Shown here: positions 7,238-39,464 of the stretch, in pieces
How the letters are laid out: the number at the start of each line of letters is the position of its first letter
Position numbering within the stretch: position 1 is the first letter of the stretch
Origin: a virus
DNA length: 39,464 nucleotides
Strand: one strand, 5' to 3'
IMG/VR virus record: IMGVR_UViG_3300047175_000261
Span: 1-39,464 of that record
Made by a program: the position numbers and the translations under genes
Notes under the pieces: model-generated
Databases searched by the model: none
The model's input: only the letters and a program-made list of their open reading frames with translations
What the model was told of the DNA's origin: nothing

Positions 7238-7896
7238 ATCCTCAAATTACTCCTTAACTCCACCATTTTTCGATAAAGATCTTTTCCTTGCTCCGCGCTG
7301 GGTTTAAAACCGCCGTTGGCAATGGAATACCCGGGAGAGCCCACGCCAAACGGCTGAAGAGGATTTTTGAGGTTTTTATCGATGGTTTGTTGGATGGATT
7401 CCGAAGGTTGTTTCGGCTTGTGAGCTCCAAGAAGTTTGATGTTGCGATAGACCAATTTATTGCGTTCAAAAGAGTCGGGCATCGCAAGGATGGACCTGGC
7501 GAGTTCGGGATCGGTTTCGGCAAGCTTATCGGCATGAGAAAGTACTTCTTCGTAATCAGGGTTTTGATCCAACCATTGCTGACGCTTGTAATCTTCCAAC
7601 GCTTTTTGAATTGCATTTTGAGTTTCGCGTTGCGTTTCTTGTTTGATCTCTTCTTTCACTTTTGTTGTGGTTTTGGCCAACCTTCTTTTATCGATGTAAG
7701 GCTCGTTATCGTCTTCATCATCGGAAGCAGCCGAACGAGATTGGGACAGTTCTTGAGCTCTTTGTTCGGCCGCCAGCCGAGCTTGTCGTTCTTCTTCCAA
7801 CTTGCGTTGATACATTTGTTCCATCTTTCGAAAATTCAATTCCTTCTCTGAAGTTGAAGAAGTTTGGGAAGTTTGAACGGAGCTTGCTTCTGTCAT
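7234..7896 (-). CDS. Capsid scaffolding protein
   Basis: 220 residues, start ATG 7896 behind a GGAAAGG-type ribosome site. Residues about 20-55 form a strong coiled coil (KMEQMYQRKLEEERQARLAA), followed by an acidic linker (DDEDDNEPY) and another long charged helix. This Glu/Lys/Gln-rich coiled-coil composition and the position between portal and major capsid genes are typical of podovirus scaffolds, which assemble with the capsid protein inside the procapsid and then leave. No protease motif is visible in it. The function follows from composition and gene order rather than a sequence match. Confidence 0.75.
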   Translation of the reverse strand: MTEASSVQTSQTSSTSEKELNFRKMEQMYQRKLEEERQARLAAEQRAQELSQSRSAASDDEDDNEPYIDKRRLAKTTTKVKEEIKQETQRETQNAIQKALEDYKRQQWLDQNPDYEEVLSHADKLAETDPELARSILAMPDSFERNKLVYRNIKLLGAHKPKQPSESIQQTIDKNLKNPLQPFGVGSPGYSIANGGFKPSAEQGKDLYRKMVELRSNLRI

Positions 7897-7910
7897 AAAA
7901 AAACCTTTCC

Positions 7911-7939
7911 TTGACTATCGTTTTCAAATTTGGTTTCAT
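7911..7939 (+). promoter_or_regulatory. Possible promoter for the rightward pair inside the late operon
   Basis: TTGACT at 7911-7916 and TTTCAT at 7934-7939 are separated by 17 bases. The -10 match is only moderate. It lies in the divergent gap between the scaffold gene and the rightward gene starting at 7979, where a promoter is needed. Confidence 0.3.
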
Positions 7940-8911: not shown

Positions 8912-9112
8912 TTACGCCAATGTTGTCGGAGGCTCACGCAGTTGACGATTTGACGTCCGAATCTGCCCATGCCCCCGAATCATCCGACCTACGGGATTCT
9001 TAATCGCTTGACCATAGAATGTACCTGCGGGAACGCCTGTCATGGCACGAATGTCCGTGTCCGAAGGATCGAAGTTCCCGGGATCTTGACTAGTACTCTT
9101 TTTTCTTGCCAT
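8912..9112 (-). CDS. Small virion-region protein
   Basis: 66 residues (MARKKSTSQDPGNFDPSDTD at the start), basic and glycine/proline containing, with no predicted membrane segment. It overlaps the start region of the next leftward gene's end by 23 bases (9090-9112), typical of a tightly packed phage operon. Two further small genes follow upstream between portal and scaffold. I do not recognise the family; podoviruses often carry small head-completion or capsid-associated proteins here. Confidence 0.6.
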   Translation of the reverse strand: MARKKSTSQDPGNFDPSDTDIRAMTGVPAGTFYGQAIKNPVGRMIRGHGQIRTSNRQLREPPTTLA

Positions 9113-9350
9113 ACATCTTCATCGGAGTTTCCGGAATGTTATCCGTTCTCATGGTATCAACACGGCCAAAAGGAAGAGTATCGGCATCAAGCTTTGCGGG
9201 ACCCTTTCGACCGATGGGGCTTTTAAATCCCATCCCGTACGAATCGCCTGCGGAAACCATTGTCCGATGATCATAACAAGGAGCGGTAAAATCCCACGGA
9301 TTTTTCTTTTCGTCCGGTTTAACCCTTGGGGCGATTGGATCCTTAAACAT
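9090..9350 (-). CDS. Small virion-region protein
   Basis: 86 residues, rich in Pro, Gly, Lys and Asp (MFKDPIAPRVKPDEKKNPWD at the start; a repeated MGFKSPIGRKGP-like middle). It overlaps the downstream small gene by 23 bases and lies 11 bases from the upstream one. No known motif is visible. Such low-complexity, Gly/Pro-rich small proteins between portal and scaffold genes are commonly virion components, but this is only positional inference. Confidence 0.6.
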   Translation of the reverse strand: MFKDPIAPRVKPDEKKNPWDFTAPCYDHRTMVSAGDSYGMGFKSPIGRKGPAKLDADTLPFGRVDTMRTDNIPETPMKMYGKKKEY

Positions 9351-9645: not shown

Positions 9646-9780
9646 TCAGCGGTGACATCCGTTCTTTTTGTAATTTTCCAAAATTACGATAAAATGTCTC
9701 ACTTCGTCTTTATTATCAAAGGTTTGCTTCACATAAAGCACCTTGTTTCTTTCAAAATAATATTTTACAACTATTTTCAT
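9646..9780 (-). CDS. 44-residue protein coupled to portal
   Basis: ATG 9780-9778 overlaps the portal stop codon as ATGA. The product is 44 residues, basic, with a beta-like N-terminus (MKIVVKYYFERNKVLYVKQ) and a helical C-terminus ending in a His/Cys/Arg-rich tail. No family is recognised. The evidence for a real gene is the coupling overlap and an intact frame of phage-like composition. Confidence 0.55.
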   Translation of the reverse strand: MKIVVKYYFERNKVLYVKQTFDNKDEVRHFIVILENYKKNGCHR

Positions 9781-11861
9781 TGCGGTTGATCGGGTTGTTG
9801 AGGTTCCTGCGGCATTTGCGGTTGTTGAACTCCGGGCATTCCTTTAAGAATTTCGTTCATAAATTCGTTTTGTGTTGCTTCCTGTTGAGATTTTTGCGTT
9901 TCTGCGTCTTCTTTGACAATGTCTTGATTTTGCAAAGCATCGATCTCGCCCAGTTTGACCATGGTTTCCACTGCGCCCAGCTTTGCGGTGACATCGACCA
10001 TCTTTTCAAGAGCTTCCATTTTTGCTTTAGTTGCAAGTGCCCTGTTTTTGGTGAGTTCGGATTCTCTTTCGTCTTTGAGACCCAGATCCGATTCGTAACG
10101 TCCGTACCGTTCTTTGGCCGATGCGATGTTGCTTGCCGCTTTGGACTGCAACTCTTGCAGTTTGGCGTGTTCGATGGCGTGAGCCACCTGTGCAGCTTCT
10201 TGTTGTGCGGCGGCTTGTTTTTGGGCCACTTCTGCAAGAATTTCCATAAGCTCTTTTTTCCCTTGAATTGGAGCTTTGGCCGCAAGTTTTTCGGGAGGAA
10301 TAATCCCGCCGAGTTGCTGATTGAGTTCAAGCCACGCTTGGTATTCTTGATACTGTTGCGTAGGAGTAAGAACTCCTTCTTCAACGGTGGTTTCATAGTT
10401 GGCAAAAATACGGGAATAGAAAAAGGGAGAAGGTTCTTCGTTGATCATCATTCCCACTTTGGAAGCATTCCAATTGTTGAGAACAATTTTCAGGCATTTT
10501 TTCCCGAGATTTTTCAACGATAAATCCCACTGGTCAAAATATTTTTGTAACACCATCAAATTTGCGGCTTGCTTCATCATAATCGTTGTGGAAGACGCTT
10601 GCTTCATGTCTTGAGCCGACCACGTTTCGAGATTGACTCCCGAGGTAGAGAAAATCAGGGATTGCAACTGATCCGCAAGAGCCATGTCCGACTCGGGAAC
10701 GGCCGAAGGCACAATCTTTTGAACATCGGTTAACTCATACCCTTCGTTGACAATTACATCCCATCCCTGACCGGATTTTTTAAGATTGTCTTCATTGGCC
10801 ACCGCTCCGATTTTTCGTATCCATCCTGCATTAATCGTCGCTTCGCTGATGTCATGGTTAATAATGATGCGGCGATTCAAAAGATAATTTGAATCACGCA
10901 TCGTTCGTACTAAACCTCTTACGCGTAAATCATAATAATTTATATGGGGTTCGTAATTCCAAAGGACGGGAATAAATGGGCAATCGTCAAATCCGAGGGG
11001 ATTATTCCCTTGGTACATCATTTGATCGTTCAGAACGACCGCAAGCTTCCACGTAGGAACCTCCATTTCCACAACTTCGAGATCGGGAAAAGATTGGAGC
11101 ATGATATCTTGCGGTTGATCTTCGGCATATTCGAAAAACTGATTTGTAGATCGAGAATACAGCTTCTTTTTTTTCCGTTTCCACTTGTACCACACGTAAG
11201 AAAGGACCATCAAATCATTTCTTGACATGTTATAATTCTCAGGGAGAAAGTAAAACGATCCAAATCTTTGGGGCGATCCCATCATGGGTCGAATTAGATT
11301 GAGTTTATCAGGGAATCGGTCTTGCGCTTCCTTTTTAGAAATGTACTCTTGACACCAGATATACTGAGAATCTTCAAACCCAAAATCACGCGCATATGGA
11401 TCGCACAAAAACGAGTTGTATTCCCACAATTTCAGCTTCATTTCCCCTTGGGCGGGATCACACCCTCGATAATCAAGATACGGTTGAAGAAGAACCATTC
11501 CGGTAATCGCGGCTTGCTCACAGGCTCGGGAAAATTGCTCGTGAAATGCCCCTGAGTTGAACACCTTCGTCATCAGCTTTGTATACTGGTCCGTTGTTTG
11601 GGTATCCGCACCTTCCGTAGGAATGTAATTAATTTGTTTACGATGCTGCCTTTGGTAGCCCGTGACCATGTTGACAGGCTGTTGTAACAAGTTGAAATAG
11701 AACTTGTTAAGACCTTGTTGCTGATTTAATCCGAAGTATCGATTAATGTATTCTTGACAGCCCGCATAAAATAAAGTATCGATGTTACTTTGATTCCATC
11801 GACTTTGCTCAATCGGCTGAAATTTGCTGTACAGATTGTCCAACCAGGTGCGGACATTCAT
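9777..11861 (-). CDS. Portal protein (P22-like type)
   Basis: 694 residues, close to the size of P22-type portals. It forms the dodecameric ring at one capsid vertex through which DNA enters and leaves, and it binds terminase. The N-terminal half has the usual portal content, including a QPVNMVTGYQRQHRKQINYI stretch near residue 60 that is typical of P22-like portals. The C-terminal ~190 residues are a long Gln/Ala/Glu-rich coiled coil ending in a Pro/Gln tail (MPQEPQQPDQPQ), matching the extended barrel of these portals. The start codon at 11861 lacks a clear Shine-Dalgarno; a second ATG follows at 11857. Hairpins occupy the leader. Family assignment is from memory and position between terL and scaffold. 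Confidence 0.88.
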   Translation of the reverse strand: MNVRTWLDNLYSKFQPIEQSRWNQSNIDTLFYAGCQEYINRYFGLNQQQGLNKFYFNLLQQPVNMVTGYQRQHRKQINYIPTEGADTQTTDQYTKLMTKVFNSGAFHEQFSRACEQAAITGMVLLQPYLDYRGCDPAQGEMKLKLWEYNSFLCDPYARDFGFEDSQYIWCQEYISKKEAQDRFPDKLNLIRPMMGSPQRFGSFYFLPENYNMSRNDLMVLSYVWYKWKRKKKKLYSRSTNQFFEYAEDQPQDIMLQSFPDLEVVEMEVPTWKLAVVLNDQMMYQGNNPLGFDDCPFIPVLWNYEPHINYYDLRVRGLVRTMRDSNYLLNRRIIINHDISEATINAGWIRKIGAVANEDNLKKSGQGWDVIVNEGYELTDVQKIVPSAVPESDMALADQLQSLIFSTSGVNLETWSAQDMKQASSTTIMMKQAANLMVLQKYFDQWDLSLKNLGKKCLKIVLNNWNASKVGMMINEEPSPFFYSRIFANYETTVEEGVLTPTQQYQEYQAWLELNQQLGGIIPPEKLAAKAPIQGKKELMEILAEVAQKQAAAQQEAAQVAHAIEHAKLQELQSKAASNIASAKERYGRYESDLGLKDERESELTKNRALATKAKMEALEKMVDVTAKLGAVETMVKLGEIDALQNQDIVKEDAETQKSQQEATQNEFMNEILKGMPGVQQPQMPQEPQQPDQPQ

Positions 11862-13891: not shown

Positions 13892-13928
13892 TTGTTAATT
13901 TTTCCATCGAGTAAACCTTATTAAAATC

Positions 13929-14000
13929 GGGAAATACAGGACTCGAACCCGCAACCTCCGGCGCGACAAGCCGGCATTCTAACCATTGAACTAATTTCCC
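13929..14000 (-). tRNA. tRNA-Asp (anticodon GTC)
   Basis: A 72-nt cloverleaf on the minus strand: 7-bp acceptor (GGGAAAT/ATTTCCC), D arm with AATGGTTA loop, anticodon stem CCGGC/GCCGG around loop TTGTCGC (anticodon GTC), and T arm with TTCGAGT loop. The 3' CCA is not encoded. The T stem contains two G.U pairs. It begins only 3 bases after the last hairpin of repeat array A, so tRNA and array are probably in one transcript and separated by tRNA processing. Confidence 0.95.
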
Positions 14001-14211
14001 ATCGCCGGTTCACCACCGGCACTAATCTTATCTCGTCAATTCGGTTCAAATCTTATCATCTCATATCCGGTGATCTCATTTCACCTCATATCAGTTCACA
14101 TCAATTTTATAAGACTTCGCAGACATAAAGCCCGGTCACCCCGGGCACTAATCTAATCACTTCATTTCAAGTCATTTCACATCAAATCACATCAGATCAC
14201 TTCATTTTACT
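14001..14211 (-). repeat. Array A: two GGUGA-loop hairpins joined by 5-nt UGA repeats
   Basis: Read on the minus strand, the stop codon TAA (14214-14212) of the upstream gene falls exactly on a lattice of TAA and TGA triplets every 5 nt: TCA on the plus strand at 14157, 14162 and so on to 14202, ten in a row. Then come hairpin A1 (14130-14146, GCCCGG-GGTGA-CCGGGC), a small GCGA-loop hairpin, a second pentamer run, and hairpin A2 (14004-14020, GCCGGT-GGTGA-ACCGGC), which abuts tRNA-Asp. The two hairpins are 126 nt apart. A 55-nt block (14035-14089) is identical to 36248-36302 in array C. The design recurs in arrays B and C. No coding frame fits it. Confidence 0.9.
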
Positions 14212-19722: not shown

Positions 19723-20142
19723 TCAACAAATTTCTATTATTTTTATGACAACGGAGTTTTTATTGGAGTATATCTTTTCCGAGCAGGATTTCGTGACCTG
19801 TTTGTCATCCCTAATGACAATTCCTTTTAAACAATCTTCAAAAAATTTTTGGATGTTTGTGCAATCGGGAGTTTTAGTGTGAAACAATTTGCCGTCTAAA
19901 AGTTGCTGCTGTTTCTTTTTGGAATAGGACGGAGGGATTTTAAAGAAAAATTTATAATCTATCTCCAAAGGGCCGGTCAGCATCGGAGTGCGATATTGGG
20001 AAAGCAATTCCGCCTGAATCAATTTTCTCTCTTGATAAAGAGGGTTGTACGCTTTTGCTCCATACCCCTTATGAGACTTCCATGAGTAGATTTTTGGAGG
20101 GTAGAGAACAAGTGTAACTAAATGTACCCAAGATCTTGTAAT
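19723..20142 (-). CDS. rusA: RusA-type Holliday junction resolvase
   Basis: The C-terminal half carries the RusA active-site pattern: PDCTNIQKFFEDCLKG followed by IRDDKQVTKS, with Asp at the PD pair, the later FED and the DD pair as metal ligands. The enzyme resolves four-way DNA junctions made during recombination or replication, fitting the ERF/YqaJ genes nearby. The start is unclear. The only ATG in frame (20217) lies deep inside the HTH gene and gives a non-family N-terminus. ATT 20142-20140, six bases after GGGAGA, would give 139 residues and place VTLVLYPP near the front, as in the family. I give that start tentatively. Confidence 0.8.
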   Translation of the reverse strand: MTRSWVHLVTLVLYPPKIYSWKSHKGYGAKAYNPLYQERKLIQAELLSQYRTPMLTGPLEIDYKFFFKIPPSYSKKKQQQLLDGKLFHTKTPDCTNIQKFFEDCLKGIVIRDDKQVTKSCSEKIYSNKNSVVIKIIEIC

Positions 20143-22768: not shown

Positions 22769-23077
22769 ATGGAAATCCAATTTATTGATTATGTCGAAGT
22801 AAAAAACGAAAAGTATTTAGGTATTGCAACAATTATGTATAACAACATGTTGCTTCGTTACAAAATTCAACCCAAAAAAGAGACAAAGGGTTTTTATGCC
22901 AAGCCTGCGGTTCATAAGATTACGGAAAACGGAGTGGATCGATACGTAGACTCGTTTGTGATCGATTCTCGCATTGAAAACGACAAGATCATTAAGTTGA
23001 TCCAAGAAGAGGTCACGAGGCGAATGCTGCCCGTTTCTGCGGTTCCGGGGTCTGTCTTCGACAATCTTCCATTCTAA
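22769..23077 (+). CDS. Possible single-strand DNA-binding or SpoVG-like protein
   Basis: 102 residues after AAGGA. The body alternates beta strands (IQFIDYVEVKNEKYLGIATI) with a basic aromatic region, and the last residues FDNLPF resemble the acidic, Phe-ending tip by which SSB proteins recruit partners (typically DDDIPF). Operon position after ERF and YqaJ supports an ssDNA-binding role. The N-terminal 80 residues also recall SpoVG, a small nucleic-acid binding protein. I cannot separate these options. The acidic linker normally found before an SSB tip is absent, so confidence in function is low. Confidence 0.72.
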   Translation: MEIQFIDYVEVKNEKYLGIATIMYNNMLLRYKIQPKKETKGFYAKPAVHKITENGVDRYVDSFVIDSRIENDKIIKLIQEEVTRRMLPVSAVPGSVFDNLPF

Positions 23078-23079
23078 AC

Positions 23080-23101
23080 AAAAAAGCCCCCAAACGGGGG
23101 C
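23080..23101 (-). terminator. Terminator closing array B on the minus strand
   Basis: Minus-strand GCCCCC-GTTT-GGGGGC is followed by six Ts, a standard Rho-independent terminator. It replaces the GGUGA hairpin as the last unit of array B, in the same AGTGCC context, just as the last hairpin of array C is a terminator. It ends 3 bases from the stop codon of the convergent rightward gene. Confidence 0.85.
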
Positions 23102-23459
23102 ACTATTCTATTCATTTCATGTCTCTTCAGCTCAATTCACTTCACATTAAATCATTTCATTTTTTTAGCCCTTGCGGACACAAAGCCCACTCACCGTGGG
23201 CACTAATCTAATCTAGTCATATCTAGTCATATCATTTCATCTCATCTCAAGTCATTTCAATTTCATAAGCTCTTTCGAACACAAAGCCGGTTCACCACCG
23301 GCACTAATCTTATCTCGTCATTTCAGCTCATGTCAGCTCATATCATTTCAGCTTCTCTAGCCTTTGCGGACACAAAGCCGGTTCACCACCGGCACTATTC
23401 TAATCTGATCATTTCATATCATCTCAGATCACCTCAGCTCAAATCAGCTCATATTAAAC
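23102..23459 (-). repeat. Array B: three GGUGA-loop hairpins joined by 5-nt UGA repeats
   Basis: Read on the minus strand. Hairpins: B1 23377-23393 and B2 23286-23302 (GCCGGT-GGTGA-ACCGGC) and B3 23185-23201 (GCCCAC-GGTGA-GTGGGC), 91 and 101 nt apart, followed by the terminator at 23080-23101. After each hairpin come TTTGTG and a small tetraloop hairpin (B2 at 23269-23280, GAAA loop; B3 at 23168-23179, GCAA loop). The rest is TGA every 5 nt: plus-strand TCA at 23409 to 23449 is nine in a row, 23318 to 23348 seven. It lies antisense-facing between two rightward genes, so it needs its own leftward transcript. No protein-coding frame is credible here; this accounts for the gene-free stretch 23078-23500. 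Confidence 0.9.
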
Positions 23460-23484
23460 AAAAAAACCCCGCAATCAAGCGGGG
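23460..23484 (-). terminator. Leftward terminator at the head of array B
   Basis: Minus-strand CCCCGC-TTGATT-GCGGGG followed by seven Ts. It stands directly before the first pentamers of array B, so either a leftward transcript from 23609-23721 stops here, or read-through enters the array under some control. Confidence 0.75.
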
Positions 23485-23500
23485 TAAAAACAAGGATTGT

Positions 23501-23608
23501 ATGAAAAAATTCTTTGAACTAAAATTAGCCGGACTTTTAATCGGCTCCGGCTCAACCTTGAGTTCAAGTTTGCCGAACACCCTACCAAGGAGTGCAAACC
23601 TAAACTAA
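23501..23608 (+). CDS. 35-residue hydrophobic peptide
   Basis: ATG 23501 follows AAGGA by four bases. The peptide begins MKKFFELKLAGLLIGSGSTL: a basic start and a short hydrophobic stretch, followed by a Ser/Pro/Asn-rich tail. It may be a small membrane or exported peptide; the hydrophobic part is short for a full membrane helix. It lies between array B and the replication gene. Evidence is only the ribosome site and composition. Confidence 0.4.
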   Translation: MKKFFELKLAGLLIGSGSTLSSSLPNTLPRSANLN

Positions 23609-23692
23609 AATGCTAAATTAACGAACGAAAATATATCCCACAAGCGGGATTTATCACAATAGCACAAATTAGTTTAATTGCAACTCCTTGGT
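23584..23692. repeat. Imperfect inverted repeat before the replication gene, candidate origin or operator
   Basis: ACCAAGGAGT (23584-23593) and ACTCCTTGGT (23683-23692) are perfect complements, and similarity continues inward for about 30 bases per arm with small gaps (GCAA, then TAAACTAA on both arms). Between them lies a hairpin ATCCC-ACAAGC-GGGAT (23635-23650). A minus-strand promoter-like pair TTGCAA (23678-23683) and TATTGT (23656-23661), 16 bases apart, is embedded. The dyad just upstream of the replication-initiator-like gene could be an origin or regulatory site. No other gene is seen in this gap. Confidence 0.5.
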
Positions 23693-23721
23693 GAAAAAAT
23701 CTTAACCCAAGAGTTGCTTCC

Positions 23722-24495
23722 ATGCAATCACCTCAAAACTTTCTTGAAACCTTCGTCATCCTTGACGACAAGATTACCAAAAAAGAACTAGCAATTTGCC
23801 GATCGTTTCTTTGGTTTTTCAAAGAAAGGTTGGTTGGGAATCACCAAGAAACGTTTCCGGCGATCAAAAAAATTGCCGAAATGTCGAAATGCTCGACAAG
23901 AACTGTAAACACTTTTATTGAAAAATATGAAGGGATCATCATCAGTCACAAATCAAAAAGAAATTTTGAAACCGGAAAGCATCATTCCAACCGATACGAG
24001 TTTAACCGGGAATTTTTTGAAAACATGATCCTTTTGGACGCATGCGGGTACCTAAAAAAATGGACTAAAAAGACCAAAATTCACGTTCTCAAATCCTACC
24101 TAAAAAACGAATGGTTTTTGCACGAAATTCTCCTATGTAGAGGAGACCTTATGAACAACAAAATTGCGCACGGTTTTTATCAAAAATTGCGCACTATTGA
24201 GAATTTCTTCTTATCAAGAAGGTTTTTAAATAAAGCACTTCAAGGCGCTTCACATAAAAAAAGGCCGGAAAAGGGCTTTGGAGTCAAAGACCCCGGGTTT
24301 GTGCACCTTCAAGGCTTGCCTTTGAGCGATCAGCAAAAAAGAAACTTGGTTGCGCAGTTCGGTCCTTACCATTTGAAAAGAGGTCGCGAAGCCTTTTTGT
24401 TCAAAAACGGGGATTCCGATTCTATAAAAAACCCCGGTTCGTTTATTTTTATGAGCTGCAGACAAAGCATTTTGCAAACCATGGCTAGAAAATGA
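23722..24495 (+). CDS. Replication-initiator-like HTH protein
   Basis: 257 residues. The N-terminal ~75 residues form a winged-helix-like domain (FPAIKKIAEMSKCSTRTVNT with the preceding helix) as in plasmid and phage replication proteins of the O/DnaD/RepA type. The central part is basic, with KKWTKKTKIHVLKSYLKNEW, and the C-terminal half is helical and basic. Its position after the recombination genes and next to an inverted-repeat region supports a role in starting phage DNA replication. No helicase or polymerase motif is present, so the phage probably uses host replication enzymes. The family is not certain. Confidence 0.75.
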   Translation: MQSPQNFLETFVILDDKITKKELAICRSFLWFFKERLVGNHQETFPAIKKIAEMSKCSTRTVNTFIEKYEGIIISHKSKRNFETGKHHSNRYEFNREFFENMILLDACGYLKKWTKKTKIHVLKSYLKNEWFLHEILLCRGDLMNNKIAHGFYQKLRTIENFFLSRRFLNKALQGASHKKRPEKGFGVKDPGFVHLQGLPLSDQQKRNLVAQFGPYHLKRGREAFLFKNGDSDSIKNPGSFIFMSCRQSILQTMARK

Positions 24496-34638: not shown

Positions 34639-35283
34639 ATGAACGTAGATAAAATTAAAGTAAATATTACAGGTGTAACCCCTCTTTTGCTTCACAACGG
34701 AAGAACGGCCAACCCTCTTGATCCCTATTGCAAAAAGATGAAGAGTTTGGTGTCCAAAAGGTCCAAAACCGACGAAGATCACGAAGAAATTCTCGATGTT
34801 CAATGGGAAGCGGCTTTGTATTTTTCCGAAAGAATCGGTCTTTATATGCCCAGCGAAAACATCTTTGCTGCGATCTCTACAGCGGCTCGAAAGCATAAAC
34901 TCGGACAAAAGTCCGGAGGAATTTCTTTAACCGAAGCACTGGGATATCCAATCGTTACAGCCAATCACTTGAGCTTAGCCGATCTGAAAGCGGATCGGAC
35001 GAATCGTTTTTACAAAACGGTCAACATCCAAAAATCCAAAACCCTTTCCTGTCGTCCCATCTTTAACGATTGGAAAATGGAATTTGAGTTTGAGTTTGAA
35101 AAAGACATCGTAGATGTCAACGAAATCATGACCATTTTGATGACACTCAATTCAAGAGTGGGCTTTGGAGTGTGGAGACCGTCCAGTCCAAAACCGGGGT
35201 CTTACGGGAAATTTATCTATAACAACATCGATTACATCGATCATAAAGGAAAGGTAAACAACCTATGGACTCTCCCATCCTAA
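34639..35283 (+). CDS. Conserved phage protein of unknown function
   Basis: 214 residues behind GGAG (ATG 34639). The start (KINITGVTPLLLHNGRT-like) and the later PSENIFAAISTAARKHKLGQ, CRPIFNDW and VGFGVWRPSSPKPGSYGKF segments match a widespread phage protein I have seen without known function. The layout of an N-terminal strand ending PLL-x-HN, a helix and a Gly-rich C-terminal strand recalls RAMP-like ferredoxin folds, but that is a guess. A promoter-like TATACC lies about 30 bases before the start. It is transcribed rightward, apart from the late operons, with the next gene. Confidence 0.75.
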   Translation: MNVDKIKVNITGVTPLLLHNGRTANPLDPYCKKMKSLVSKRSKTDEDHEEILDVQWEAALYFSERIGLYMPSENIFAAISTAARKHKLGQKSGGISLTEALGYPIVTANHLSLADLKADRTNRFYKTVNIQKSKTLSCRPIFNDWKMEFEFEFEKDIVDVNEIMTILMTLNSRVGFGVWRPSSPKPGSYGKFIYNNIDYIDHKGKVNNLWTLPS

Positions 35284-35798
35284 ATAAAAGCCATACTTCT
35301 AAAAAAATAAAGTCGATCAAAAACCAAATTCAACTCCTCAAAAACGAGGGGTTGATCAAAGCCGGTAAAGTGTTTGAAAAGGAAACCATCGAGTTGATCC
35401 TTGGGGTTTCGTACAAAAAAGAGGATTGGGAATTTTTAGGCCCTTACCTTGCTTTTATTTCTCTCATTGAAGCCGAAGGATTTTTTGTCACTCAACGAGG
35501 GATGGAACCCCCTGCGTTTCGTTTGCTGGAATCTAAAGAGATGGCAGACCATGCGGAGCGAAAGCTTGTCAAAAACATGATGAGCAACATGAAAATTGGG
35601 TATATTTTGGCGGCTCATGACACAACTTCTTTAAACGAAGAAGAGCGAAAAAAGCATGAGCATATTCAAAAGAAAGCCGCTCGAACTTCGTTGTTTCAAC
35701 AAAAGCTTTTAATGGAAGATGTTCTTTTTGATTATCTTGTAGAAGATAAAAATCAAAAGATGAATTTAGAAAGTCCTATTAACTTTGATGAATATTAA
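35265..35798 (+). CDS. Unknown protein preceding repeat array C
   Basis: 177 residues; ATG 35265 overlaps the previous gene by 19 bases. It is helical and charged: SKKIKSIKNQIQLLKNEGLI near the start, a central domain (FLGPYLAFISLIEAEGFFVT) and a Lys/Glu-rich end. The N-terminal part may bind nucleic acid. Its stop is followed directly by repeat array C, so the array probably forms the 3' untranslated part of this mRNA. No family recognised. Confidence 0.7.
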   Translation: MDSPILNKSHTSKKIKSIKNQIQLLKNEGLIKAGKVFEKETIELILGVSYKKEDWEFLGPYLAFISLIEAEGFFVTQRGMEPPAFRLLESKEMADHAERKLVKNMMSNMKIGYILAAHDTTSLNEEERKKHEHIQKKAARTSLFQQKLLMEDVLFDYLVEDKNQKMNLESPINFDEY

Positions 35799-36320
35799 TT
35801 AAAATAAATTAAAATGAGATGAAATGATGTGAGATGAAATGAAGTGAATACATAAGATTAGTGCCCGGGGTGACCGGGCTTTGTGTTCGAAAGAGCTTAT
35901 GAAATTGAAATGACTTGAGATGAGCTGAGATGAATTGAAATGAGATGCTATCAGAGGAAATGAGTTGAGCGGATTAGAATAGTGCCGGTGGTGAACCGGC
36001 TTTGTGTCTGTATAGGCTTATGAAATTGAGATGAGCTGAGATGAATTGAAATGAGCTGATTTAAGATGAAATGAAGTGACTAGATTAGATTAGTGCCCAT
36101 GGAGAGTGGGCTTTGTGTCCGCAAGGGCTTATGAAATTGAAATCAGTTGAGCTGATGTGAAGTGAATTGAGTAGAAGTGATTAGATAAGATTAGTGCCCG
36201 GGGTGACCGGGCTTTGTGTTCGAAAGAGCTTATGAATTTGAATTGAGATGAGGTGAAATGAGATCACCGGATATGAGATGATAAGATTTGAACCGAATTG
36301 ACTAGACTAGACTAGATTAG
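35799..36320 (+). repeat. Array C: four GGUGA-loop hairpins joined by 5-nt UGA repeats
   Basis: Hairpins: C1 35863-35879 and C4 36196-36212 (GCCCGG-GGTGA-CCGGGC), C2 35984-36000 (GCCGGT-GGTGA-ACCGGC), C3 36095-36111 (GCCCAT-GGAGA-GTGGGC). Each is followed by TTTGT and a 4-bp hairpin with a GAAA, GTAT or GCAA loop (35885-35896, 36006-36017, 36117-36128, 36218-36229) whose stems co-vary. Then, after TTATGAA, TGA triplets recur every 5 nt, for example 35815 to 35845 (seven in a row) and 35906 to 35941 (eight). Hairpin-to-hairpin distances are 121, 111, 101 and 126 nt, all 5n+1. A terminator at 36322-36344 is the last unit. This gene-free stretch has no credible coding frame. Confidence 0.92.
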
Positions 36321-36321
36321 T

Positions 36322-36344
36322 GCCCGGGTAAACCGGGCTTTTTT
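36322..36344 (+). terminator. Rho-independent terminator ending array C
   Basis: GCCCGG-GTAAA-CCGGGC followed by TTTTTT. It takes the place of the fifth array hairpin and ends the rightward transcript from 34639. The T run contains the stop codon of the convergent leftward gene (36345-36343). Confidence 0.9.
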
Positions 36345-36846: not shown

Positions 36847-39464
36847 TTAACAAAGCATTTGGCTAGGCGTGCAATCGAGTGTGGCTCCGTGAAACTCAAT
36901 TTCTGCAAAATAGTTTTGAAGAGTCGTGTCTCTCATTTGCGCATCGGACAAAATAAACCCAAATTGCACCGTATCACCAATCAAAGAAGTATTCAATCGA
37001 TGCCAAATTTGCGATTGAGTAGGCGCTGTTGGGGTGTTCAAATTGTACGTAAATTCCGTGAGCCCCAAATTTGTTGATTCCGCACACGTGTACAAAACGG
37101 TGCTGTAAATCGTTCCTGAGTTTTGCACTCCCGACAGATTGATTCCCGGCAACGAAGGGAACAAAGGATCGGTCGAAGTCATCGTATTGTACACATTGGT
37201 CGAGTCTTGACTTAAAAACATCATCAAAGTGAGTTCGTTAATTGGTGTAGATGTAAACAAGTATTGCTGCACCCCCAACCTTGTTTTACGACCCATCGAC
37301 CAAGACAAAGGAAATTGCTTGGATTGAATAAAGGGAACATACAAGCGTTGGATCAAACCCGCTCCCAAATAGGTATACGATGACTCGTTAAATCCGGCAT
37401 CGATCACAAACGTGTTTTGCGTGGTAAAAGAAACTTTATATACATTTCCATTGAGTTCTGTTCCAATGGTTCCCAAAGCTCCGCTGATTAAAATATAATC
37501 ACCGTCATTGAGCATATGATTGTACGATGTGATCGTAACCGTCGTTCCCCCCGAAAAAGAGGTAATGAGCAAAGAAGTTGCTTCCCCGGTCCCTTGACCT
37601 CGAATGACGACAAACCCTTGCGCATTTCCTGCAATCACCTCCGGTTGTAAAAGAGTCGATTGCCCTGCATTCCAAGGATCGTTCCATTGCTCCCAAGTTG
37701 CATACACCGTACCAATCGTTCCCCATGTTTGTCCTGTGGATCTGCGAAAAGATCCATACGTAGTATACGATTCGTAAAACAATCCGTACGAATTATCCCG
37801 ATAGTTGTATTGCAACGTTGCGCTCGGAAATAAGAAATTGCTATTGACCAAATTACTGTTAAAAGAAAAATAGATCCATTCGTTGATATAATCCCTTTGG
37901 GCACAAATCCTTTGTGCTCCGTTGTTGAGCAATGAAATCTCAAAGATTTCATCGGGGATGTCCAAATCGATCCTTTCCGCCCCTGTTTGCGTTGTAATGA
38001 TGTATCCTCGACTTCCAACGCTAAACACCCCTTTATCCATGACAACGGTTGAAAAAGTGGATTGTGTTCCAAGTTCCGAGTTGACGATGAAGAAGTTGAA
38101 CGGTACAATGTCGTTGCCGGTGTAGATCATTCGCGTCTGTTTCGTCGGGAAACCGACGAGCAATACGTCTTCATTCCCTCCTACGGAAATTATAGGTTGA
38201 TCTACACCGACATTTTGAAATCCTCCAAATCCCGTCACATCCGAAAAATAGGCCGAAGGCGTTGCGGTCTCAAGAGTTTGGACCGATGCTCCGGGATTGT
38301 ATCCCGCAACCAAAAGCGGATAAAACGTGGTAGAAGCCGAAACAGGCGATCCGGAAAACGATGCCGTATAATACGGAGTCCCGTTTTGAGAGTATACAAT
38401 CGTGTCTTGCAAATAGATGGGCGTTCCCGATGAGGTTTGCACAACAACCCCAAAAAAAATCAATCGATCTTTAAATGGAACAATTAACCTGGCTCCCACA
38501 AGGTAATATTGCGCCTGCGGTAAATTGGAAATCGAAAAGTTTGCCTGCGAAATCGGAGGCATGAAGTTGACAAACCCATATCCCGAAGAAGGAGTAGGAG
38601 GAGATCCCGCCGTAGGATCTCCGTCATACCATCGAATGCAATCCTTTGTGGAACTCGAAACGTTGGTGAGATATTGGATCATTCCTCCCGTGTACGTGTC
38701 GCTTGCAATTGAGGCATAAGGAAAAGAAACCACAACCGTAGTTCCGGAAACCGATGTCACAAATCCCGTTTGAAAGTTGAGGGATTGGCTGTTTGCGGTG
38801 GTGGACCCCACAAACTCATTTACAAACACCCAATCGCCTACAACAAGAGGGGTCGCCGTAATGGTAAACGTCATGCTTGTCGAGCTCGTACGGCTGATCG
38901 TGGCCGGAATCTGAAACTGCATTCCAATATTTGTCGTGGTAAACGGAATCGTGATGCCGGGGGTAACCCAAAAACTGTTTTGATAATTCGTACTCCAAAA
39001 CTGCTGATAATTTTGAGCATTCCAAGTTACGGAAGTCCATGAAGTTTTAGCGGTATATGTAATGCCGTTGATTGTCGTGGTTTGGGGATTTTTAAAAAAA
39101 CTTACCTTGTAAGAAGAATAAGGGTAAGTATTTGTAATATTGTATGCATAGGTCGTATCAAAAGCTAAAGTGTTTACATAAGAAGACGCGGAATTGTAAT
39201 AATCTTCCAATCCTAAAACAGGAAGGCCGGGATAGTAAGCAACCGTCCCGGTCATGGTTTGTCCGCCTCCTGCGGCGATAAAAAGAACCCCTGTCGCGTA
39301 GTTAATGGACCCTGAACTTCCCGAGCCTCCGCTCAGCGTTAAAACTCCTGTTCCCAAAGGGTCCGTATATGTCGTTCCGTCGGAACTTCCCACTAAACTG
39401 ATGCTTGTGGGAACAATCGAGGCAGTAGACGACAATCCTAAAGCGGTGATCAAATTCACTTCCT
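36847..39464 (-). CDS. Tail stabilization/nozzle-type protein, C-terminal part (runs off the window edge)
   Basis: This is the same gene as at 1-1194; 38479-39464 duplicates 1-986. The merged product is 941 residues (36847-38478 plus 1-1194). The sequence is beta-rich throughout, with a DRLIFFGVVVQTSSG segment, a TRMIYTGNDIVPF-type segment and, near residues 690-760, an FCCH-like unit (VTITSYNHMLNDGDYILISG then LNGNVYKV and NTFVIDA). P22 gp10- and T7 gp12-like tail proteins are large beta-propeller proteins with similar size and place. Among the copies, g954/a39432 changes Pro to Ser; the other three differences are silent. Confidence 0.85.
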   Translation of the reverse strand, partial: EVNLITALGLSSTASIVPTSISLVGSSDGTTYTDPLGTGVLTLSGGSGSSGSINYATGVLFIAAGGGQTMTGTVAYYPGLPVLGLEDYYNSASSYVNTLAFDTTYAYNITNTYPYSSYKVSFFKNPQTTTINGITYTAKTSWTSVTWNAQNYQQFWSTNYQNSFWVTPGITIPFTTTNIGMQFQIPATISRTSSTSMTFTITATPLVVGDWVFVNEFVGSTTANSQSLNFQTGFVTSVSGTTVVVSFPYASIASDTYTGGMIQYLTNVSSSTKDCIRWYDGDPTAGSPPTPSSGYGFVNFMPPISQANFSISNLPQAQYYLVGARLIVPFKDRLIFFGVVVQTSSGTPIYLQDTIVYSQNGTPYYTASFSGSPVSASTTFYPLLVAGYNPGASVQTLETATPSAYFSDVTGFGGFQNVGVDQPIISVGGNEDVLLVGFPTKQTRMIYTGNDIVPFNFFIVNSELGTQSTFSTVVMDKGVFSVGSRGYIITTQTGAERIDLDIPDEIFEISLLNNGAQRICAQRDYINEWIYFSFNSNLVNSNFLFPSATLQYNYRDNSYGLFYESYTTYGSFRRSTGQTWGTIGTVYATWEQWNDPWNAGQSTLLQPEVIAGNAQGFVVIRGQGTGEATSLLITSFSGGTTVTITSYNHMLNDGDYILISGALGTIGTELNGNVYKVSFTTQNTFVIDAGFNESSYTYLGAGLIQRLYVPFIQSKQFPLSWSMGRKTRLGVQQYLFTSTPINELTLMMFLSQDSTNVYNTMTSTDPLFPSLPGINLSGVQNSGTIYSTVLYTCAESTNLGLTEFTYNLNTPTAPTQSQIWHRLNTSLIGDTVQFGFILSDAQMRDTTLQNYFAEIEFHGATLDCTPSQMLC
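38479..39464. repeat. Right copy of the 986-bp contig overlap
   Basis: Counterpart of 1-986 in the same direction. Four substitutions, three of them within the last 65 bases. Merging the copies gives a circular unit of about 38,478 bp. Confidence 0.93.

Follow-up and report, generated by a model that had tools for sequence, protein, structure and literature searches.

Array B and its surroundings

The window, a 39,464-nt stretch of viral DNA (IMG/VR record IMGVR_UViG_3300047175_000261), carries three arrays of short repeats, designated A, B and C. A 90-aa ORF is listed twice, at 292-564 and at 38770-39042, once at each end of the record, so that the record may carry a direct terminal repeat of almost 1 kb. 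Array B, which was also picked up by a repeat finder and by TRF, consists of four units on the minus strand. Each unit is composed of a tract of pentamers (UGA followed by two variable bases, NN) and a hairpin tail. The features of the array B region are the following, with the basis of each assignment in brackets:

23466..23485, minus strand, terminator-like hairpin and T-run directly upstream of array B (terminator scan)
23397..23456, minus strand, repeat tract of putative guide RNA (vrRNA) 1, 12 pentamers (sequence grammar)
23358..23397, minus strand, B1 tail, two hairpins (covariation and covariance model)
23306..23350, minus strand, repeat tract of putative vrRNA 2, 9 pentamers (sequence grammar)
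23267..23306, minus strand, B2 tail (covariation and covariance model)
23205..23259, minus strand, repeat tract of putative vrRNA 3, 11 pentamers (sequence grammar)
23166..23205, minus strand, B3 tail (covariation and covariance model)
23105..23159, minus strand, repeat tract of putative vrRNA 4, 11 pentamers (sequence grammar)
23080..23105, minus strand, last B tail, consisting of the first tail hairpin (23101-23086) and a T-run, terminator-like (16.5 bits)

The genes on either side of array B, 22769-23077 and 23722-24495, are both encoded rightward, as the first-pass annotation had stated, and the leftward terminators that it placed around the array are found as hairpins with T-runs at 23485-23466 and 23101-23086. 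No leftward ORF of at least 80 aa is listed between 22546 and 25654, so array B is not the 3′ UTR of a leftward gene. The absence of such a gene and the tail hairpins, which covary on one strand, support the earlier proposal of a non-coding RNA on the leftward strand. The description of this RNA as stand-alone is applicable to array B only, which no leftward gene precedes; arrays A and C each begin immediately after the stop of a gene. A promoter-like pair had also been suggested at 23656-23683. This pair is weak: a 9/12 promoter-like site is present at 23659-23630, but such sites are no commoner here than in shuffled sequence (nine found versus a shuffle mean of 7.5). Transcription of array B would either start close to the upstream terminator or reach the array by read-through of that terminator.

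The region upstream of the array, 23456-23721, ends in the terminator hairpin preceding array B and folds strongly on both strands compared with shuffles (z −6.1 for the minus and −6.7 for the plus strand). No relatives of this region were detected in the collected related loci beyond a weak 59-nt match. It is perhaps an origin or a structured leader. A match to the Rfam family GcvB upstream of array B stays below threshold (26.3 bits, threshold 42, E 0.0011). The gene beside array B gives weak matches to replication initiators (E 0.012).

Units and tails of the three arrays

Arrays A and C share the unit of pentamers and tail with array B, which bears out the earlier assignment of array B to the same system as its neighbours. 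Their features are as follows:

14004..14204, minus strand, array A, two putative vrRNA units with tracts 14150-14204 and 14024-14103 (grammar and tail model)
13927-14001, tRNA-Asp, abutted by the last tail of array A
35810..36344, plus strand, array C, five putative vrRNA units (grammar and tail model)
35810, 35906, 36027, 36138 and 36239, plus strand, tract starts of array C
36322-36338, plus strand, terminator-like hairpin closing array C (terminator scan)

The 11 units of the window contain 9-16 pentamers each. Over their 135 pentamers, which were assigned to units with the tract ends chosen by eye, the three fixed positions are T in 104, G in 126 and A in 134 cases, and the last two positions are mixed. 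Two stems make up the tail behind each tract, one of 6 bp showing compensatory changes and one of 4 bp capped by a GNRA-type loop; 97.5% of the cells pair. The covariation of the tail is 0.514, compared with a shuffled mean of 0.199 and with 0.014-0.075 in slid controls; none of the 500 shuffles reaches the native value. Each of the three arrays has a stronger fold than its shuffles (z −5.4 to −6.0).

A covariance model was built from the eight complete tails of the window. Within the window it recognizes 11 places only, which correspond to the 11 array units: the eight complete tails, whose match is built into the model, score 67.9-60.8 bits, and the truncated tails closing the three arrays score 30.2, 23.2 and 16.5 bits. 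None of the Rfam families matched the arrays at gathering score. The model was also applied to 29 other sources and gave no confident match in 28 of them; the best match of all, in the contig L198 (17.4 bits, E 0.0084), lies upstream of the L198 array and was not accepted. A likeness of the window tail to blocks in the contigs L075 and L083, noticed by eye, received no support from the covariance model.

The first tail stem closes every unit. Within the arrays, TTTGTGT or TTTATGT and then the second hairpin come after this stem. In the final units of arrays B and C a T-run takes their place, and in that of array A the tRNA-Asp gene begins within a few bases. We infer that one and the same hairpin serves as the vrRNA tail and, in the last units, also as a terminator or as the edge that tRNA processing leaves. 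Since the last tail of array A abuts the tRNA-Asp (tail and tRNA together 13927-14024), 5′ processing of the tRNA could form the 3′ end of the array A guide.

The arrays also share longer stretches. The stretch of about 45 nt that had been reported as common to arrays B and C measures 48 nt; it starts from GGCTTTGTG and comprises a unit's tail together with the opening pentamers of the following unit. Arrays A and B have 35 nt in common. Arrays A and C share a 55-nt guide piece of the units A2 (14024-14103) and C5 (36239-36318), and for this reason guides appear to move between arrays by copying or exchange.

The vipr and vap genes

Array C sits behind a two-gene operon; the distance to its first gene is 20 kb for array A and 11 kb for array B:

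34639..35283, plus strand, vipr, RAMP/Cas7-fold protein of phrog_4652, homologue of SUSP1 Vipr (sequence and predicted structure)
35265..35798, plus strand, vap, accessory gene overlapping the end of vipr (iterated HMM)

A CRISPR-like, phage-borne system, VIPR (Viral Interference Programmable Repeat), was described for the Escherichia phage SUSP1 in a 2026 bioRxiv preprint (PMC13142463), the only description of it that the literature search returned. According to the main text of the preprint, a VIPR system comprises a RAMP protein, a vap gene and vrRNAs with 9-16 GGY/NN repeats and a structured tail, which in SUSP1 holds a pseudoknot. The arrays are described there as flanking vipr. In SUSP1 the NN bases pair with DNA, one target base being skipped per pair, and the complex, as tested for this phage, represses genes of rival phages and prophages (PMC13142463). 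The same source reports VIPR to be older than CRISPR, RNA-guided, RAMP-based and a very small DNA-targeting tool. Passages of two earlier articles dealing with Felix O1-like phages (PMC4837284, PMC3185647) do not mention the code.

The Vipr protein of the window matches PDB entry 36pp, 'SUSP1 Vipr protein', with an E value of 2.4e-27 as a single sequence. The profile of the family, made of seven rows including the SUSP1-like protein of phage wV8, matches 36pp with an E value of 8.1e-85. In the predicted structure (mean pLDDT 82, weak at 181-186) the window protein adopts a RAMP fold that most resembles Csm3/Cas7. Nearly all of the best 50 VIA-align rows are RAMP chains of type III, IV or VII CRISPR systems (best Z 10.9, rmsd 4.0 over 173 residues), and the best Foldseek match has an E value of 5.4e-5. 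The vap product forms one family with the products of the genes behind vipr in SUSP1-like phages, namely in wV8 and in the contig L256, as revealed by iterated HMM searches. PADLOC, applied to 12 proteins of the vipr family, returned weak Cas6 matches for one of them only (best E 0.0019). No cas operon was seen next to the system in the window.

In view of the match of Vipr to 36pp, the RAMP fold, the vap family and the published description of VIPR, array B is best read as four vrRNAs of this phage, with a probability of about 0.88. The RNA proposed by the first-pass annotation is thus right in kind, and array B is presumably transcribed, by analogy with VIPR systems, which produce such RNAs (PMC13142463). 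The 5-nt grammar of three fixed and two free bases, the tie to the genes at 34639-35798 and the function go beyond that annotation; the function is deduced from vipr, which lies 11 kb from array B, and from the preprint.

Association of the arrays with vipr

Related viral contigs were gathered with the 694-aa protein encoded at 9777-11861 of the window. Over a total of 1.40 Mb, made up of the window and 96 related loci, 33 regions in eight sequences have a period-5 score above the threshold; in the same DNA, no regions were obtained with control period 4, five with period 7 and 12 with period 8. The general period-5 detector revealed other triplets in a few related contigs, namely GCC/GGC, GTT and TCC/GGA, and the array-bearing contigs with these triplets are those that carry phrog_4652 (6 of 50 records). 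Period-5 arrays are present in all five relatives with vipr and in none of the 35 without it (Fisher 1.5e-6). This count covered 41 of the 50 records, the longer ones up to base 39,900 and the contig G022 up to base 20,000 only, short of its vipr.

Among 80 viral vipr loci, 69 have an array within 3 kb of the gene, and 11 have no array over the threshold. Control period 6 exceeds the threshold in 14 of these loci, so single weak regions mean little; period 4 does so in none and period 7 in two.

GenBank phages contain 129 relatives of Vipr, mostly in felixounaviruses. In phage wV8 (L192), GGTNN arrays lie on either side of gene 95, which is vipr, at 7690-7920 and 9093-9310. The depositors of this genome annotated a repeat_region, DR_4, beside these arrays and gave no explanation for it. 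Arrays also occur beside vipr in the phages MakoManhole, Trine, Medea1 and LittleE, the weakest being that of Medea1 (40.7 bits). Six plasmids of Azospirillum and Bradyrhizobium (H101-H106) carry Vipr relatives. In Gordonia and Mycobacterium phages, blocks are located between GGCNN tracts (L193 2880-3250 and L196 7130-7530). By eye these blocks resemble a tRNA T-arm with an acceptor-like stem; a search of them against Rfam gave no tRNA call.

In the related loci the triplet is found on the sense strand of vipr. This orientation bears on the possibility that the arrays act as double-stranded DNA sites, such as iterons for partition or replication, with the RNA being incidental. The dispersal of the arrays over three places and the weak similarity of the gene beside array B to replication initiators would fit such sites. 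The strand preference of the triplet, the tail hairpins covarying on one strand with one GNRA-type loop, the terminators ending the last units and the RNA-binding RAMP fold of the protein speak against them, and we regard this explanation as very improbable.

The anchor triplet

The triplet in the window, UGA, differs from the GGY (GGC/GGU) of the described VIPR, for which the main text of the preprint gives GGY 'or a related consensus' (PMC13142463). This other fixed triplet suggests a change of the guide code between phage lineages. A Vipr tree was calculated from 90 rows (72 different) by a quick method with midpoint rooting; three rows duplicating contigs already present had been removed manually, 20 of the 90 rows have no anchor label, and the program flagged long branches. 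The UGA users, namely the window, L197, L198 and L174, form one group (SH-aLRT 99), in which L174 is less pure (15 GAA and 14 TGA among 67 pentamers). Five GUU users form another group, which is sister to the UGA group, with an SH-aLRT of 99 for both nodes and for their pairing. Both groups are nested among the GGY users. In the contig L023 (4478-5407), GGANN arrays flank a divergent vipr, which stands beside a GGC pair elsewhere in the tree; GGA is a third non-GGY anchor and a separate change.

These triplets also bear on the idea that the arrays are a series of degenerate terminators or a REP-like repeat that was amplified by chance. Each tail hairpin with TTTGTGT does score as terminator-like; however, the 5-nt grammar is exact, the arrays go with vipr across phages, with none in the 35 relatives lacking it, and the triplets follow the protein tree. 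A chance origin of this kind is accordingly highly implausible.

When 46 different GGY proteins were compared with four UGA and five GUU proteins, window position 178, in the glycine loop, was found to be D in 44 of the 46 GGY, V in all four UGA and E in all five GUU proteins. Residue 178 may be among the determinants of the anchor switch. Eleven further positions also split the UGA from the GGY proteins, and with four UGA sequences shared descent alone could explain any separating position. We infer that UGA replaces GGY as the triplet held by Vipr. The VIPR guide code has probably been rewritten in nature, with Vipr reading UGA here and GUU in the sister clade in place of GGY, giving orthogonal systems. 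Anchors of the UGA and GUU type may already be contained in the 'related consensus' of fig. S17 of the preprint (PMC13142463).

Search for targets

All 11 units were searched with skips of 0-3 against 3.49 Mb of related loci and the window with the arrays masked, and nothing above chance was obtained. With a skip of 1, the native guides of the 11 units were not clearly better than order-shuffled guides on the same DNA. As no guide matches the masked window above shuffled guides, self-targeting by the one-skip rule is not seen. Large collections were scanned with three of the 11 units, A2, C5 and B1. In viral_contigs, the 20-base core of A2/C5 and the 18-base core of B1 gave no matches. The 16-base cores gave three and five stretches there, in which the flanking pairs agree at about chance level; those of B1 lie within unrelated proteins. 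In genome_contigs, the A2/C5 core has a single match, at about chance, in a Planctomycetota contig with no open frame across it.

Such an outcome would be in keeping with arrays that bind Vipr without being guides, as decoy or storage RNA or as an inhibitor of rival VIPRs with no programmed DNA target. The guide stretches of 35-55 nt common to the arrays, as in repeat shuffling, could be understood in the same way. We consider this improbable: the NN positions are mixed and the anchor is kept, as in the active guides described in the preprint (PMC13142463), the phage owns vipr and vap, so that a pure decoy is not needed, and the wide target search took in only three of the 11 units.

Proposed function and relation to known systems

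We propose that the four RNAs of array B are VIPR guides. Each would contain 9-12 pentamers, in each of which a copy of the phage's Vipr would hold the fixed UGA. The two free bases would name a double-stranded DNA target, probably with one skipped base between pairs, as in SUSP1. The hairpin behind each tract would be the vrRNA tail; where a T-run follows it, in the last unit, it would double as terminator. The complex would serve to silence genes of competing phages or prophages, and the guides may name DNA of a rival element; complex formation, the skip rule and silencing are carried over to this clade by analogy with SUSP1. The UGA anchor, the negative target searches, the vipr loci without an array, the distance of arrays A and B from vipr and the good terminator-like hairpin directly before array B count against this reading.

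The system shares with VIPR of SUSP1 homologous Vipr and Vap proteins, a two-gene phage locus with an array downstream, tandem pentamers of three fixed and two free bases and a structured tail behind each tract. It differs in having UGA in place of GGY, a tail of two hairpins of its own kind and two of three arrays far from vipr. With class 1 CRISPR-Cas and its Csm3/Cas7 RAMPs it has in common the RAMP fold and arrayed RNA guides with a constant and a variable part. The hallmarks of class 1 CRISPR-Cas are direct repeats separated by unique contiguous spacers, together with several cas genes, whereas the tracts of the window consist of 5-nt repeats without such spacers, the guide information being spread over dinucleotides. 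TRAP-bound leader RNAs also contain triplets two free bases apart, but with other triplets, at a single site and for an unrelated ring protein. A TRAP-like site, Rho utilisation, DNA iterons and REP-like repeats were dropped as explanations; the arrays of relatives with other triplets track phrog_4652. The system is thus a recoded variant of the just-described VIPR, with a changed anchor and dispersed arrays.

The three dispersed arrays of the window indicate that guide loci can sit far from vipr, and searches confined to the flanks of vipr will therefore miss guides. The main interest of the array B system lies in its recoding. If the triplet changes with the protein between clades, a comparison of the clades could pinpoint the residues that read the anchor, and several VIPRs, each with its own code, could operate in one cell.
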